DNA of 64,000 nucleotides. Source: Erythrobacter neustonensis (GTDB lineage Bacteria > Pseudomonadota > Alphaproteobacteria > Sphingomonadales > Sphingomonadaceae). Each line of letters begins with the position of its first letter. Position 1 is the first letter of the stretch. The stretch lies in NCBI RefSeq assembly GCF_001663175.1, contig NZ_CP016033.1, positions 1,860,001 through 1,924,000 on the forward strand. Reading direction: 5' to 3'. Made by a program: the position numbers and the translations under genes. The notes beneath the pieces are model-generated. The model searched no databases, was not told the DNA's origin, and was given only the letters and a program-made list of their open reading frames with translations. Shown piece by piece: positions 14,686-58,921 of the stretch.

Positions 14686-15471
14686 ATGGAAGTTTCAGCC
14701 AACACTCCCGCCGTCGTCACCGGCGGTGCCTCGGGCCTTGGTGCGGCCACCGCGCGCGCGCTGGCGGCCAAGGGCGCCAAGGTCGCGATCTTCGACATGA
14801 ACGAGGAAAAGGGCGAGGCCCTCGCTGCCGAAATCGGCGGCATCTTCTGCAAGGTCAACGTGACCAGCGATGAAGACGTCGATGCCGGTTTCGCCAAGGC
14901 CCGCGAAGCCCACGGGCAGGAGCGTATCCTCGTCAACTGCGCCGGCATCGGCAACGCGATCAAGACCGCCAGCCGTTCCAAGGAAGACGGCTCGATCAAG
15001 CACTTCCCCGTCTCGGCCTTCGATTTCGTGATCCAGGTCAATCTGATCGGCACCTTCCGCTGCATCGCCAAGTCGGCGGCGGGCATGCTGACGCTCGATC
15101 CGCTGGACGAATTCGGTGAGCGCGGCGCGATCGTCAACACCGCGTCTGTGGCGGGCGAGGACGGTCAGATCGGTCAGGCGGCATACTCGGCATCGAAGGC
15201 CGGCGTGATCGGCATGACGCTCCCCATCGCGCGCGACCTGATGAACGAAGGCATCCGCATCAACACCATCCTGCCGGGCATTTTCGATACCCCGCTGCTC
15301 GCCGCAGCGCCGCAGAACGTGCGCGATGCGCTGGCCGCGTCGGTGCCGTTCCCCAAGCGTCTGGGCATCCCCACCGAATATGCCAAGCTCGCCATGACGA
15401 TGATCGAAACCGGCTATTTCAATGGCGAGGACGTGCGCCTCGACGGCGGCATCCGGATGGCCCCGCGCTAA
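14686..15471 (+). CDS. SDR dehydrogenase, 3-hydroxyacyl-CoA dehydrogenase type 2-like
   Basis: NAD(H)-dependent short-chain dehydrogenase of 261 residues, probably oxidising 3-hydroxyacyl-CoA. Cofactor loop TGGASGLG at residues 12-19, acidic Asp at the end of beta-2 (VAIFDMNEE) favouring NAD over NADP, NCAG structural motif, and catalytic Ser154, Tyr167 and Lys171 (YSASK). The segment following NCAGIGNAIKT and the long insert before the catalytic serine resemble human HSD17B10. It follows the thiolase with 27 bp between, and an intrinsic terminator follows it, so the two form a transcription unit. Confidence 0.9.
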   Translation: MEVSANTPAVVTGGASGLGAATARALAAKGAKVAIFDMNEEKGEALAAEIGGIFCKVNVTSDEDVDAGFAKAREAHGQERILVNCAGIGNAIKTASRSKEDGSIKHFPVSAFDFVIQVNLIGTFRCIAKSAAGMLTLDPLDEFGERGAIVNTASVAGEDGQIGQAAYSASKAGVIGMTLPIARDLMNEGIRINTILPGIFDTPLLAAAPQNVRDALAASVPFPKRLGIPTEYAKLAMTMIETGYFNGEDVRLDGGIRMAPR

Positions 15472-15501
15472 TCCTCGACGTCTGATCAGACCTTTCAAAA
15501 G

Positions 15502-15536
15502 ACCGCCTCCGTGCCGCCCGGCACGGGGGCGGTTTT
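15502..15536 (+). terminator. Intrinsic terminator after the thiolase-SDR pair
   Basis: A 14-bp stem (15502-15515 with 15520-15533, one G-T wobble) around a GCCC loop, followed by TTTTG. It lies 30 bp after the SDR stop. Confidence 0.85.
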
Positions 15537-15749
15537 GCATTCGGGGCCTTGCAGGCAGGCATCTTCGTGGCGGCGCTTTCCTACTTCGCACGCCAGGCAT
15601 AGCGTTCCCCGCATGGCTACAACCCGCTCCTTCGCCGCTGTCGTCCCTGTCAAATTCGCGCCCCCGTGCGAGGCTTGTTTTCCTGTTCTGGACAGTGTCT
15701 CATGTGTCTCCAACACGCATCCCCGACGCCCGAGCGAGAGAGAACCGCA
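15537..15749. other. Intergenic region before the crotonase gene
   Basis: About 210 bp without a recognisable gene; a frame open from 15666 is just the upstream extension of the crotonase frame. It contains the short direct repeat GTGTCTCATGTGTCTC around 15695-15710, a possible regulator site, and the GAGAGAGA ribosome site. Confidence 0.45.
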
Positions 15750-32945: not shown

Positions 32946-33035
32946 GGTGATTTAGGCGTGGATCGAGGCGGCCTTGACCCCGCCTTGACCCCCTCTTGCC
33001 CTTGCCTGACCCGCGTTTGCGTGCGATTCAGCGGC

Positions 33036-35563: not shown

Positions 35564-35878
35564 ATGGGTATTGGTTCGCTGTGGCACTGGATCATCGTTC
35601 TGCTGATCGTGCTGGTGCTGTTCGGGCGTGGCCGCATCTCGGAAATGATGGGCGATTTCGGCAAGGGCATCTCGAGCTTCAAGAAGGGCCTCAACGAAAC
35701 CGAGGATACCGCGGCAAAGACCGTGCGGATCGAACCGCCCGTCGCGCCCGTCGCTCCGGTTGAAGCGCCTGCGCCCGTCGCAACGCCGGCCACGGTCGCG
35801 GCACCGGCACCGGCACCGGCACCGGCACCGGCACCGGCACCTGTGCCGGGTGACAAGCCCGACACAACCGGCGTCTGA
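35564..35878 (+). CDS. tatA: Sec-independent protein translocase TatA
   Basis: 104 residues. N-terminal helix [21 protein letters not shown] with the FG hinge, then the amphipathic helix [21 protein letters not shown]. The C-terminal tail is an Ala-Pro repeat encoded by six and two-thirds copies of GCACCG (35801-35840), so its length may vary between strains. AGGAG stands before ATG 35564; the longer frame from 35492 is spurious. First of tatABC, which exports folded proteins through the inner membrane. Confidence 0.95.
35801..35840 (+). repeat. Hexanucleotide microsatellite in tatA
   Basis: GCACCG repeated without interruption for 40 bases, encoding alternating Ala-Pro in the TatA tail. Copy changes keep the frame. 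Confidence 0.9.
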
Positions 35879-48608: not shown

Positions 48609-48659
48609 TGACAAGAGCTCTTGACTGACAAGAACTCTTGTCTGTAAAGAGCTCTTGTC
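48609..48659. promoter_or_regulatory. Three tandem 17-bp palindromic repeats (operator array)
   Basis: TGACAAGAGCTCTTGAC (48609-48625), TGACAAGAACTCTTGTC (48626-48642) and TGTAAAGAGCTCTTGTC (48643-48659) are contiguous direct copies. Each contains an inverted repeat around its centre, and centres are spaced exactly 17 bp. They lie between the lysozyme gene (start 48500, leftward) and the XRE gene (start 48734, rightward), so they are likely operators for the XRE protein. Binding is inferred. Confidence 0.75.
48621..48650 (+). promoter_or_regulatory. Possible promoter inside the operator array
   Basis: TTGACT (48621-48626) and TAAAGA (48645-48650) with an 18-bp spacer that contains the middle operator copy. 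If real, a repressor on the repeats would block RNA polymerase. Match to sigma-70 is only fair. Confidence 0.3.
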
Positions 48660-55669: not shown

Positions 55670-57067
55670 TCAGGGCGCGTATCGCGCGCGGATCGCATGC
55701 CACGATGCGCGCAGCCCAAGCCCTCTGCCTCCGCGGGCGCGGCCCGGTTTGGGGGTGGGGGACCAGGCGAAGGTGTCGAAATGCACCCAGTCGATTCCCT
55801 CGCCCACGAAGCGGTCGAGAAACAGTCCGGCGACGCTTGCCCCGGCATAGGGGTTGGCTGCCGAGTTCGCCATGTCGGCGACATCGGAAGCAAGGTATTC
55901 GCGGTAGCCATCATGCAACGGCAGTCGCCAGGCGGCATCGTCATGCGCTTTGCCTGCGGCGAGAAATTCGTCTGCCGTCGCATCATGGCGCGCGAACAGC
56001 GCAGGCAGATCAGGACCGAGCGCAACCCGCGCGGCGCCCGTCAGCGTGGCGAAATCGACGATCAGATCGGGATTTTCCTCCGACGCGCGGGTCAACGCAT
56101 CGCCCAGGATCAACCGCCCTTCGGCATCGGTGTTGTCCACCTCGACCGTCAGGCCCTGCCGCGTCTTCAGCACGTCGCCGGGGCGAAAGGCATTGCCCGA
56201 AATCGCATTTTCGACTGCCGGAACAAGCAGATGGAGCCGCACTTTCAGCCGCGCGTCCATCACGAGGCCTGCCAGCGCAATGGCATGGGCAGCACCCCCC
56301 ATGTCCTTTTTCATCAGCCGGCTGCTAGCGCCCGGCTTGATGTTCAGACCCCCGCTGTCGAAGCACACGCCCTTGCCGACCACTGCCAGCACCGGATGCG
56401 CAGGATCGCCCCAGACAAGATGCATCAACCGCGGCGCGTGGTGGCGCGCGGCGGCGCGGCCCACGGCGTGGACCATCGGGTATTCCTGTTCGAGCGCATC
56501 GCCGCGCACCACGGTGAGTTCGGCGTTGTGCGCCTTGGCCAGCCGTTCGCATTCGGCTTCGAGCGCGGCGGGGCCCATGTCTTCAGGCGCGGTGTTGACC
56601 AGATCGCGCAGCAGACATTCGGCTGCCGCTTCAGCGACTTGCGCATCGATTTGCCCGACCTGCGCGGTCAGCAGCACGCGGGGCCCCTGCACCTTGTCCT
56701 CGCTCTTGTAGCGGGTGAAGCGGTGCTGCCCGGTGATCCAGCCGAACATCGCGGGCCCCGGGCCAGCGCCTTCGCTTTCGGAAGCGAGCCGGTAGATGCC
56801 TTCGGGCAGTTCCTCGGCGAGCTTCGCAAGGCACCAGCTCGACAGGCTGTCGGGGTTGGCGACACCGCTGACGACGAACCAGGAATCGCCATCGGGAACA
56901 ATGGCATACTGGTATCCCGCGCCTTCGAACTTCTGCCCTGCCAGCACCGCGCGCTGGCCGGCGGAGAGGCGCTTGGCAAAGTCGCTGAAGCTTTCCTTGT
57001 TGACGAGGTGGATCGCAATTGCGTCTTCGCCGCGGTCGGGGCGGATCAGGGCTTTGGCTTCGCTCAT
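55670..57067 (-). CDS. Leucyl aminopeptidase (M17)
   Basis: 465 residues. Two-zinc metallopeptidase removing N-terminal residues in the cytoplasm. Metal and catalytic motifs: GKGVCFDSGGLNIKPGASSRLMKKDMGG (two parts) with Lys and Asp, and the signature NTDAEGRLILGDAL. N-terminal domain is less conserved, like other alphaproteobacterial LAPs. Begins at ATG 57067, 68 bp from the divergent lipoprotein gene. First gene of the LAP-SH3-argC set. Confidence 0.93.
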   Translation of the reverse strand: MSEAKALIRPDRGEDAIAIHLVNKESFSDFAKRLSAGQRAVLAGQKFEGAGYQYAIVPDGDSWFVVSGVANPDSLSSWCLAKLAEELPEGIYRLASESEGAGPGPAMFGWITGQHRFTRYKSEDKVQGPRVLLTAQVGQIDAQVAEAAAECLLRDLVNTAPEDMGPAALEAECERLAKAHNAELTVVRGDALEQEYPMVHAVGRAAARHHAPRLMHLVWGDPAHPVLAVVGKGVCFDSGGLNIKPGASSRLMKKDMGGAAHAIALAGLVMDARLKVRLHLLVPAVENAISGNAFRPGDVLKTRQGLTVEVDNTDAEGRLILGDALTRASEENPDLIVDFATLTGAARVALGPDLPALFARHDATADEFLAAGKAHDDAAWRLPLHDGYREYLASDVADMANSAANPYAGASVAGLFLDRFVGEGIDWVHFDTFAWSPTPKPGRARGGRGLGLRASWHAIRARYAP

Positions 57068-57134: not shown

Positions 57135-58061
57135 ATGACACCGGCAATGTTTCACGTGAAACAGCGCGATTTCGGCACCCCAAACGGTGTCTGGCAGGGG
57201 TCTAACCGGGATCAAACCCGGATCAAGAAGGCGCGAACCGCGCTTTTGATGGTGGCAAGCGCGGTCATGCTCGCTGCCTGTTCCTCGCCCGAGGAGATCG
57301 CGCAAGGCACCGCAACCGCGCAGGCCACCACCGCCGCAGCGCAGCCGCCCGCACCTCCGACGCCGCCGGCCGTGGACGCAGCGAAGGTTGAATTCACCGA
57401 CAATGCCGCCGATGGCGAGGCCAAGCGCGAGTTTGCTTACGGCTGGCCCGCCGAAGCCGCCGCGATCCCAGCGCTTGCCGCGCGGCTGACCGCCGACCGC
57501 GACAAGCTGCTTGCCGAACAGAAGGCCGACTGGAGCAGCGCATTGAAGGAGTTCGGCAACAGCGACTGCATCGGCTGCGTCAACCGCGATTTTTCCAAGA
57601 CGTGGGAAGTGGTCGCCAACCTGCCGCGCTTCCTGTCGCTGTCCTACGGTTTTTACGCCTACACCGGCGGCGCGCATGGCAACAGCGCATCGGGCGGTCT
57701 GGTGTGGGACCGCGAGGCGGATGCAGCGGTCGAACCACGCGCCTTCTTCACTTCGGCCAAGGCGATGCAGGATGTGCTGGGCCCGCGCTGGTGCAAGGCG
57801 TTGTCGGGTGCGCGCCGTGCCAAGATGGGGGGCGAGGGCCCGGTCGATGAAAGCACCTTCCCGTGCCCGCCGATCGCCGATCTCACCGTGCTGCTGGGAT
57901 CGAAGGGCAAAACCGGCTTCGACCGGATCGGGTTGATCGCCGATCCCTATGTCGCAGGCTCCTATGCCGAAGGCGATTACGAGGTGACCATCCCCGTCAC
58001 CGCCGATATCCTCGCGATCGTCAAACCCGAATACAAGGCGGCTTTTAACCTCGGAAAGTAG
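57135..58061 (+). CDS. Lipoprotein with DUF3298/DUF4163-type domain
   Basis: 308 residues from ATG 57135, which follows GGGAGAG with good spacing. The lipobox LAACSS lies unusually far in (about residue 50), so the N-region is long. It is long because codons 5-10 (FHVKQ) are the parS sequence. The body has a TYGxxxYTGGAHGN-like segment, SLSYGFYAYTGGAHGNSAS, typical of DUF3298 with PdaC/RsiV-like fold, and a CIGC motif. Periplasm-facing lipoprotein of unknown role. 32 bp before map. Confidence 0.82.
   Translation: MTPAMFHVKQRDFGTPNGVWQGSNRDQTRIKKARTALLMVASAVMLAACSSPEEIAQGTATAQATTAAAQPPAPPTPPAVDAAKVEFTDNAADGEAKREFAYGWPAEAAAIPALAARLTADRDKLLAEQKADWSSALKEFGNSDCIGCVNRDFSKTWEVVANLPRFLSLSYGFYAYTGGAHGNSASGGLVWDREADAAVEPRAFFTSAKAMQDVLGPRWCKALSGARRAKMGGEGPVDESTFPCPPIADLTVLLGSKGKTGFDRIGLIADPYVAGSYAEGDYEVTIPVTADILAIVKPEYKAAFNLGK
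57148..57163. other. parS centromere site
   Basis: TGTTTCACGTGAAACA, a perfect 16-bp palindrome equal to the bacterial parS consensus bound by ParB. It overlaps codons 5-10 of the lipoprotein gene. One exact copy in the window; another CACGTG near 13181 lacks the flanks. Confidence 0.9.
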
Positions 58062-58093: not shown

Positions 58094-58921
58094 ATGCACG
58101 ATTATCAACTCGTTGACGGCGACAAGACCGTCTACCGCGATGGCTCCATCAAACTGCACACCCCCGAAGGGTTCGAGGGCATGCGCAAGGCCGGGCGGCT
58201 GGCCGCTGAAATTCTCGATGCCTGCGCCGAGATGGTGCAGCCGGGCGTCACCACGGGCAGCATCGACGATGCGATCCGGGGAATGATGCTCGATGCGGGC
58301 GCGGTGCCCGCAACGCTGGGTTACCGCGGCTATGCACACAGTTCGTGCATTTCGATCAACCATGTGATCTGCCACGGGATTCCGGGCGACAAGGTGCTGA
58401 AGGATGGCGACATCCTCAACATCGACGTGACCCCGCTGGTCGATGGCTGGCACGGCGACACCAGCCGGATGTTCTTTGCCGGCGAACCTTCGATCAAGGC
58501 GCGCAAGCTGGTCGAGGTGACCTATGAATGCCTGATGCTGGGCATCGCGGCGGCGCAGCCCGGCGCGCGACTGGGCGATATCGGCGCCGCGATCGAAGCC
58601 CATGCCAGCCAGTATCGTTACGGCGTGGTGCGCGAGTTCTGCGGGCATGGTCTTGGCCGCCTGTTCCACGATGCGCCCGAAGTGGTCCATGCGGCGAAAG
58701 CCGGCACCGGACCGGAACTGCGCCCGGGAATGTTCTTCACGATCGAACCGATGATCAACCTCGGCAAGCCCTGGGCCAAGGTGCTGGGCGATGGCTGGAC
58801 CGCGGTGACGCGCGACAAGAGCCTTTCGGCGCAGTTCGAGCATTCGATCGCGATCACCGAAACGGGCAACGAGATCTTCACCAAGAGCCCGACCGGACGC
58901 GACTGCCCGCCTTACGTTTGA
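58094..58921 (+). CDS. map: Methionine aminopeptidase type I
   Basis: 275 residues. Removes initiator methionine. Metal ligands: Asp in NIDVTPLVDGWHGDTSRMF (two Asp), His in REFCGHGLGRLFHDAPEVVH, Glu in FTIEPMINLG and Glu in AQFEHSIAITE. The second His (H in FCGHG) and substrate His are present. Cytoplasmic. A strong stem-loop follows the stop. Confidence 0.96.
   Translation: MHDYQLVDGDKTVYRDGSIKLHTPEGFEGMRKAGRLAAEILDACAEMVQPGVTTGSIDDAIRGMMLDAGAVPATLGYRGYAHSSCISINHVICHGIPGDKVLKDGDILNIDVTPLVDGWHGDTSRMFFAGEPSIKARKLVEVTYECLMLGIAAAQPGARLGDIGAAIEAHASQYRYGVVREFCGHGLGRLFHDAPEVVHAAKAGTGPELRPGMFFTIEPMINLGKPWAKVLGDGWTAVTRDKSLSAQFEHSIAITETGNEIFTKSPTGRDCPPYV

Follow-up and report, generated by a model that had tools for sequence, protein, structure and literature searches.

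A perfect parS site beneath a lipoprotein start codon in Erythrobacter neustonensis, one of tens of copies around the chromosome

The parS site and the lipoprotein gene over it

The window, i.e. the whole stretch of 64,000 nucleotides that was analyzed, corresponds to positions 1860001-1924000 of the single contig (C1; 3,090,363 bases) that constitutes the genome of Erythrobacter neustonensis. Near its right end, between an aminopeptidase gene and the methionine aminopeptidase gene map, lies a gene for a lipoprotein with a PdaC domain (PF13739, 34.5 bits against a cut-off of 29.1), whose first codons coincide with a parS site (Table 1). As the initial annotation had held, this site, TGTTTCACGTGAAACA, is a perfect palindrome and agrees exactly with the 16-bp parS consensus. 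It is the sole match at three or fewer mismatches in the window, where shuffled sequences average 0.08 such matches, and a scan of the whole window returned no other site between zero and five mismatches.

Table 1. Features at and around the parS site, in window coordinates
Feature	Position	Strand	Remarks
M17 (leucyl) aminopeptidase gene	55670..57067	-	PF00883; upstream neighbor of the lipoprotein gene, divergent
Lipoprotein gene with PdaC domain	57135..58061	+	First codons over parS and array; alternative start at 57147
parS, perfect palindrome TGTTTCACGTGAAACA	57148..57163	.	One of 52 exact copies in the genome; orthologous sites in E. colymbi, four other named relatives and G277
Four degenerate 11-bp units GTGTCTGGCAG, GGGTCTAACCG, GGATCAAACCC, GGATCAAGAAG	57187..57230	+	Remnant of a GGGTCT array
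M24 metallopeptidase (methionine aminopeptidase, map) gene	58094..58921	+	PF00557; downstream neighbor of the lipoprotein gene

The lipoprotein reading frame opens with an ATG at 57135-57137, with GGGAGAG ahead of it, and continues ACA CCG GCA ATG TTT CAC GTG AAA CAG. The second ATG, at 57147-57149, overlaps the palindrome, and from there the frame reads MFHVKQ. Both the FHVKQ stretch near the protein start and the displacement of the lipobox to about residue 50, as originally described, were thus recovered, the lipobox cysteine being residue 49 when counted from 57135. The array remnant, which Tandem Repeats Finder did not report when run on the window, begins 24 bp past the site.

In all five of the closest lipoprotein orthologs found, the ORF starts over a parS-like site (0-2 mismatches) read in the same frame, giving the N-termini MFHVK, VFHMK or MFHAK. 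The site is exact in only one of these five, and in four of them it is followed by one to four GGGTCT units; the ortholog in E. colymbi has GAGGAGG and then ATGTTTCATGTGAAACG. Four more distant orthologs that were inspected, out of 26 further loci, had neither the site nor the N-terminal extension. At the orthologous place in the relative G277, TGTTCCACATGGAACA and three GGGTCT units stand directly before map, with no lipoprotein gene there; since G277 keeps parS and array without that gene, the DNA element is independent of the protein. Together with the orthologs, this suggests that the element outlasts, or predates, the lipoprotein gene, and that the first residues of the protein follow the element, in line with the earlier proposal that a DNA site had shaped the N-terminus. 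Other parS sites inside genes are read as MFHVKH, VFHVKH or xVS(R/H)ET, while the frame with an internal stop is used once, by a variant site in mnmE that is read CFTWNI.

Copies around the chromosome and in relatives

The genome contains 52 exact copies of the 16-mer and none of its reversed control. When up to two mismatches were allowed, the total rose to 63 through 11 sites with one mismatch, none with two being found in the genome scan, and the reversed control gave no exact and one single-mismatch hit. A chance origin of the copies was rejected, the reversed exact 16-mer being absent from this genome and from 114 genomes of the genus. Eight sites, seven of them exact, form an origin-type cluster at 950-955 kb, located within and next to the genes mnmG-rsmG-parA-parB and mnmE, not far from rho and hemE (the mnmG-parAB cluster spans 948-955 kb); these gene names are presumptive, assigned by reading the ORFs. 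The other 55 sites (45 exact) are dispersed at a mean spacing of 56 kb (CV 0.83). The window site is one of these 55 and lies approximately 0.96 Mb from the mnmG-rsmG-parA-parB cluster, which speaks against the initial placement of the window near the origin domain. In 61 sampled stretches, the polarity of GGGNAGGG, which we take to be the E. coli KOPS motif and assume to be used in this genus, indicated an origin side at about 0.95-1.4 Mb and a terminus at 2.61-2.69 Mb, and these switch points put the window site, at 1.917 Mb, in mid-arm. The polarity flips themselves suggest that the motif serves to orient FtsK in the genus. A scatter of the 16-mer around the chromosome had been expected to count against a parS role; the copies are indeed scattered, but relatives show the scattered sites conserved, both in where they lie and in their sequence, as described below.

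Among 94 genomes of the genus that are at least 90% complete, 40 carried 11-89 sites (hereafter amplified) and 54 carried 2-8 (low-count), against 0-2 hits for the reversed control. Named amplified genomes include E. colymbi (76 sites), E. tepidarius (22) and Porphyrobacter IPPAS B-1204 (31), and two MAGs had 68 and 27. In a family set of 249 genomes, 237 of the 243 outside the genus had 0-6 sites at two or fewer mismatches, and six had 7-17, namely G034 (7), two members of genus g68 (8 and 17) and three of genus g90 (10, 14 and 14, the fourth member having 6). The 8-17 sites in genera g90 and g68 (G096, G154, G201, G068, G133) possibly represent independent, smaller spreads. Empty orthologous places were examined in a single low-count genome, G037, in which all four sites in 156 kb around the cluster lie inside it; sequence homologous to the flanks of our sites 916284 (both sides), 985734 and 1086428 (one side each) contains no parS there.

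The most informative comparison was with G277, in which a genome scan found no exact copy of TGTTTCACGTGAAACA. Instead, 52 of its 62 sites are exact copies of TGTTCCACGTGGAACA, located both in its cluster and around the chromosome. By comparing the G277 sites with E. neustonensis stretches reaching about 3 kb to either side, a procedure in which sites in rearranged surroundings score as unpaired, 43 of the 62 could be paired with 43 of our 63, i.e. eight in the cluster and 35 dispersed, leaving 19 and 20 unpaired sites, respectively. When the 35 dispersed pairs were aligned without gaps and anchored on parS, flanking bases were 39-45% identical, while 14 positions of the site agreed in 480 of 490 letters (98%). 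At the symmetric positions 5 and 12, agreement dropped to 6% and 3%. The eight cluster pairs show the identical switch (12% agreement at positions 5 and 12), so that in G277 the dispersed sites have changed together with those at the origin. Had the sites been free to change, they should be as scrambled as their flanks; that nearly every one of them instead carries the change on both sides points to one reader for all of them, and ParB would be the simplest explanation of the joint switch.

In E. colymbi, 27 of the 76 sites were examined, drawn from a mismatch-sorted list in which two-mismatch sites are under-represented, and 21 of these were paired with ours (14 of 20 dispersed and all seven in the cluster). 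The 14 paired dispersed sites comprise two exact, 11 with one mismatch and one with two, and 10 of 18 mismatches in dispersed sites fall on the outermost base; only 20 of the 76 sites in that genome are exact. The parS constraint thus appears weaker there and differs among species. At window positions 15471-15736, i.e. between a gene end and a terminator-like hairpin, E. neustonensis has no remnant of a parS with GGGTCT array that E. colymbi (L126) and G277 (L167) share. This clean absence, together with the 20 of 63 sites that are unpaired in G277, indicates that single sites are dispensable.

The dispersed sites favor gaps between genes, mostly close behind a gene end. Using our own gene-calling script rather than curated annotation, we found 45 of the 55 to be intergenic (the non-coding share of the sampled sequence being 10.3%), with 25 between convergent, 17 between tandem and three between divergent genes; for comparison with the 25 of 45, convergent gaps account for 13.6% of site-free intergenic bases. 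Many sites are accompanied on one side by units of the form GGGTCT(G/A)(G/A)A(G/C/A)G with an 11-bp period. Within 160 bp of the dispersed sites, 85 GGGTCT motifs point away from parS against six the other way, at a density of 5.17 per kb compared with 0.314 per kb at more than 500 bp. In 26 cases the array-free side faces a gene end, 22 of which have the site 0-31 bp behind the stop codon. The array lies on the same side in 26 of the 27 E. neustonensis-G277 pairs with an array in both; of the remaining dispersed pairs, five have none in either genome and three have one only in G277. A tandem GGGTCT pair occurs in 25 of the 40 amplified genomes, and in eight of the 54 low-count genomes (one each, at or below the reversed control). 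Since 15 of the 40 amplified genomes have no such pair, the array is unnecessary for dispersal. No clear bias of array orientation with respect to replication was seen by eye, and Rfam, when run on eight stretches, returned a tRNA only. An extended hairpin at the sites was considered and dropped, flanking complementarity at most positions not being clearly above expectation. As separate observations, the window also holds about 2.5 copies of the 11-bp GCCTTGACCCC (32971-32998), which resembles a distant GGGTCT relative and has no adjoining parS, a 17-bp tandem repeat with a near-palindromic unit, TGACAAGAGCTCTTGAC (48609-48657, 2.9 copies), and a perfect 6-bp tandem repeat, CGGCAC (35799-35841, 7.2 copies).

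ParB and the reading of the dispersed sites

The genome encodes one protein with a ParB_N domain (PF02195), beside the mnmG-parAB cluster, and a PF02195 search of the genome found no second. The motifs GERRWRA and ENLQR, which we take to be tied to the CTP-clamp role of ParB, are both present in it. Residues were numbered as in C. crescentus, by alignment to 6t1f and with the help of residues named in PMC7383237, according to which ParBs conserve R173 and G201 while positions 179 and 184 vary. At the Noc-diagnostic positions 173, 179, 184 and 201, the E. neustonensis protein has R, M, T and G. A Noc-type reader (Q173, K179, K184, R201) was therefore rejected, as these residues differ and the PF02195 search gave only the one protein.

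ParB residues were read in 37 of the 40 amplified genomes (G273, G282 and G318, with no or a split ParB, being excluded) and in 18 of the 54 low-count ones. The equivalents of R173 and G201 are kept in the ParBs examined, although R173 was partly a search criterion, since the finder required a KSRSH-type motif; it nevertheless gave a hit in 55 of the 55 genomes tried. Position 179 separates the two groups, all 37 amplified genomes having M or, in G316 only, V, and all 18 low-count ones having I, T or L. Position 180 is M in 34 of the 37 (Q in G212 and G268, H in G277) and Q in 17 of the 18 (M in G262). The amplified ParBs form one clade on one side of a branch (support 99/97), and the recognition-helix change therefore counts as one event. 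The change and the amplification coincide on one branch only, so that a causal link between the two is at most possible, and G277 is the only instance in which H180 goes with the second parS sequence.

From the conservation and the joint switch, we consider it probable that ParB truly loads at the window site, which would belong to a set of about 55 dispersed and selectively maintained parS sites besides the eight in the cluster. For the wider proposal, that a clade turned an origin-centered centromere into a polycentric one, made tolerable by the ParB helix change, and that one lineage rewrote nearly all of its sites together to a second parS sequence alongside the change at residue 180, the case for and the case against seem to us evenly balanced. 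On the reading that we consider probable, a clade within Erythrobacter (including former Porphyrobacter) would have spread parS chromosome-wide, in step with the change in the ParB recognition helix, and many sites would have stayed in place since. Each site would serve the single ParB as a nucleation point, from which it would spread as sliding CTP-bound clamps; both arms would thereby carry short ParB domains one after another, making the chromosome polycentric and giving ParA and SMC local points at which they could act. With tens of sites, such a chromosome may have many short SMC domains, or its ParB may be uncoupled from SMC or tuned down. Gene ends are perhaps where a loaded site does least harm, and at the window locus the element would have come to lie under a start codon, so that it wrote the N-terminus of the lipoprotein. 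ParB occupancy, clamp loading, a benefit and the first spread of the sites are all matters that we infer from the sequences.

If this is correct, the usual confinement of parS could be studied in the clade as a natural experiment, as could the ways in which ParA, SMC and MipZ adjust to the loss of such confinement. In G277, where 40-odd orthologous sites have switched and ParB has changed next to the specificity residue 179, a protein and its whole target set would be seen changing together, amounting to a natural rewiring of the entire set of DNA targets of one protein.

Dispersed ParB might instead act mainly as a division inhibitor, with ParB-bound MipZ over the nucleoid blocking FtsZ in the manner of Noc or SlmA occlusion. 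A full-length MipZ is present, which makes this possible (373 bits; here the score counts rather than the match, as the Pfam model also matches 14 of 14 controls), and sites are weaker around the inferred terminus of our genome, with one exact and seven single-mismatch sites at 2.40-2.87 Mb compared with 44 and three elsewhere, in an interval chosen after seeing the data. The weakening appears not to be general, as five of the six near-terminus single-mismatch sites with a partner in G277 are exact consensus there, and we regard this reading as unlikely. General avoidance of the terminus likewise seems doubtful, being seen in our genome and not in G277, both of which have sites close to it. 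We would put slightly less weight still on a role of the composite element in insulating or terminating transcription at gene ends, where ParB clamps, or an RNA hairpin plus array, would stop read-through and the C-rich strand could serve Rho. The 25 of 45 intergenic sites between convergent genes fit this, as does the C-rich strand, which follows a gene 3' end in 30 of 38 array-bearing intergenic sites, and the 11-nt spacing would be that of a regularly spaced Rho site. Against this, the letters kept are exactly those of parS and not just any hairpin, and the concerted switch follows the origin cluster; moreover, complementarity of the flanks is at most positions not above expectation and the tandem GGGTCT pair is missing from 15 amplified genomes.

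Two further explanations appear more improbable by a clear step. The recurrent combination of parS and array in fixed orientation, and site gains and losses between species, could also result if a short mobile or selfish repeat, of the REP or MITE kind, carried parS by accident. We find this very improbable, as inspection and column counts revealed no common sequence beyond parS and the degenerate array, 43 positions are common to two species despite diverged flanks, and our genome has no two-mismatch sites, while G277 has undergone a coordinated switch. That same switch, in which cluster and dispersed sites move together, would not be expected from two independent readers, and the idea that the dispersed sites are read by another DNA-binding protein, unrelated to ParB and of parS-like specificity, is, if anything, the least credible of the four, even though such mimicry is possible in principle and the protein search covered ParB_N only. 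Reading by ParB remains our preferred explanation.

Comparison with known systems

In the holocentric chromosomes of eukaryotes, centromere activity is spread along the chromosome. The resemblance would be an analogy only, as no proteins are shared and the activity of the dispersed sites here is a prediction. Among bacteria, the literature matches listed contained no report of dispersed parS in Sphingomonadales, although the survey by Livny and others (2007) may mention it; the one paper found that combines ParB, parS and Erythrobacter speaks of par clusters on plasmids.

Noc and its NBS sites (PMC7383237) similarly combine a ParB-family protein with a 16-bp palindrome found chromosome-wide, ParB binding being a prediction in our case. 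Here, by contrast, the sites are parS, R173 and G201 of ParB are retained, and the ParB_N search brought up a single protein. ParB of P. aeruginosa contacts DNA all over the chromosome (PMC7022226, PMC10419367), as predicted here from the sites, but does so at hundreds of genome-abundant half-parS sites, whereas those of E. neustonensis are full 16-bp sites, far above chance expectation and kept in position.

B. subtilis Spo0J/parS likewise has several sites, some of them far from the origin (about ten in all, mostly origin-side; PMC8357415, PMC7022226), and its ParB loads SMC. Strong parS sites that are separated cause SMC collisions in that species (PMC8357415), and clustering of the strong sites is thought to avoid these, in contrast to the tens of perfect, unclustered sites here.

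The closest counterpart is ParABS of C. crescentus, another alphaproteobacterium, with which E. neustonensis shares the parS core, R173 and G201 in ParB, parAB next to mnmG-rsmG with hemE close, and MipZ. There, the parS cluster lies about 8 kb from ori, and the cell bears a second cluster only if it falls within a zone of about 500 kb, extra parS beyond this being harmful (PMC5815017). Introducing an ectopic parS leads to ParB recruitment and to a new SMC-dependent alignment (PMC5583512). While parS is thus confined in C. crescentus, 55 sites extend over the whole chromosome here, and what seems to be new is the combination of a parS and a ParB that look ordinary with an arrangement regarded as harmful in current work, which takes the position of parS to be tightly restricted.
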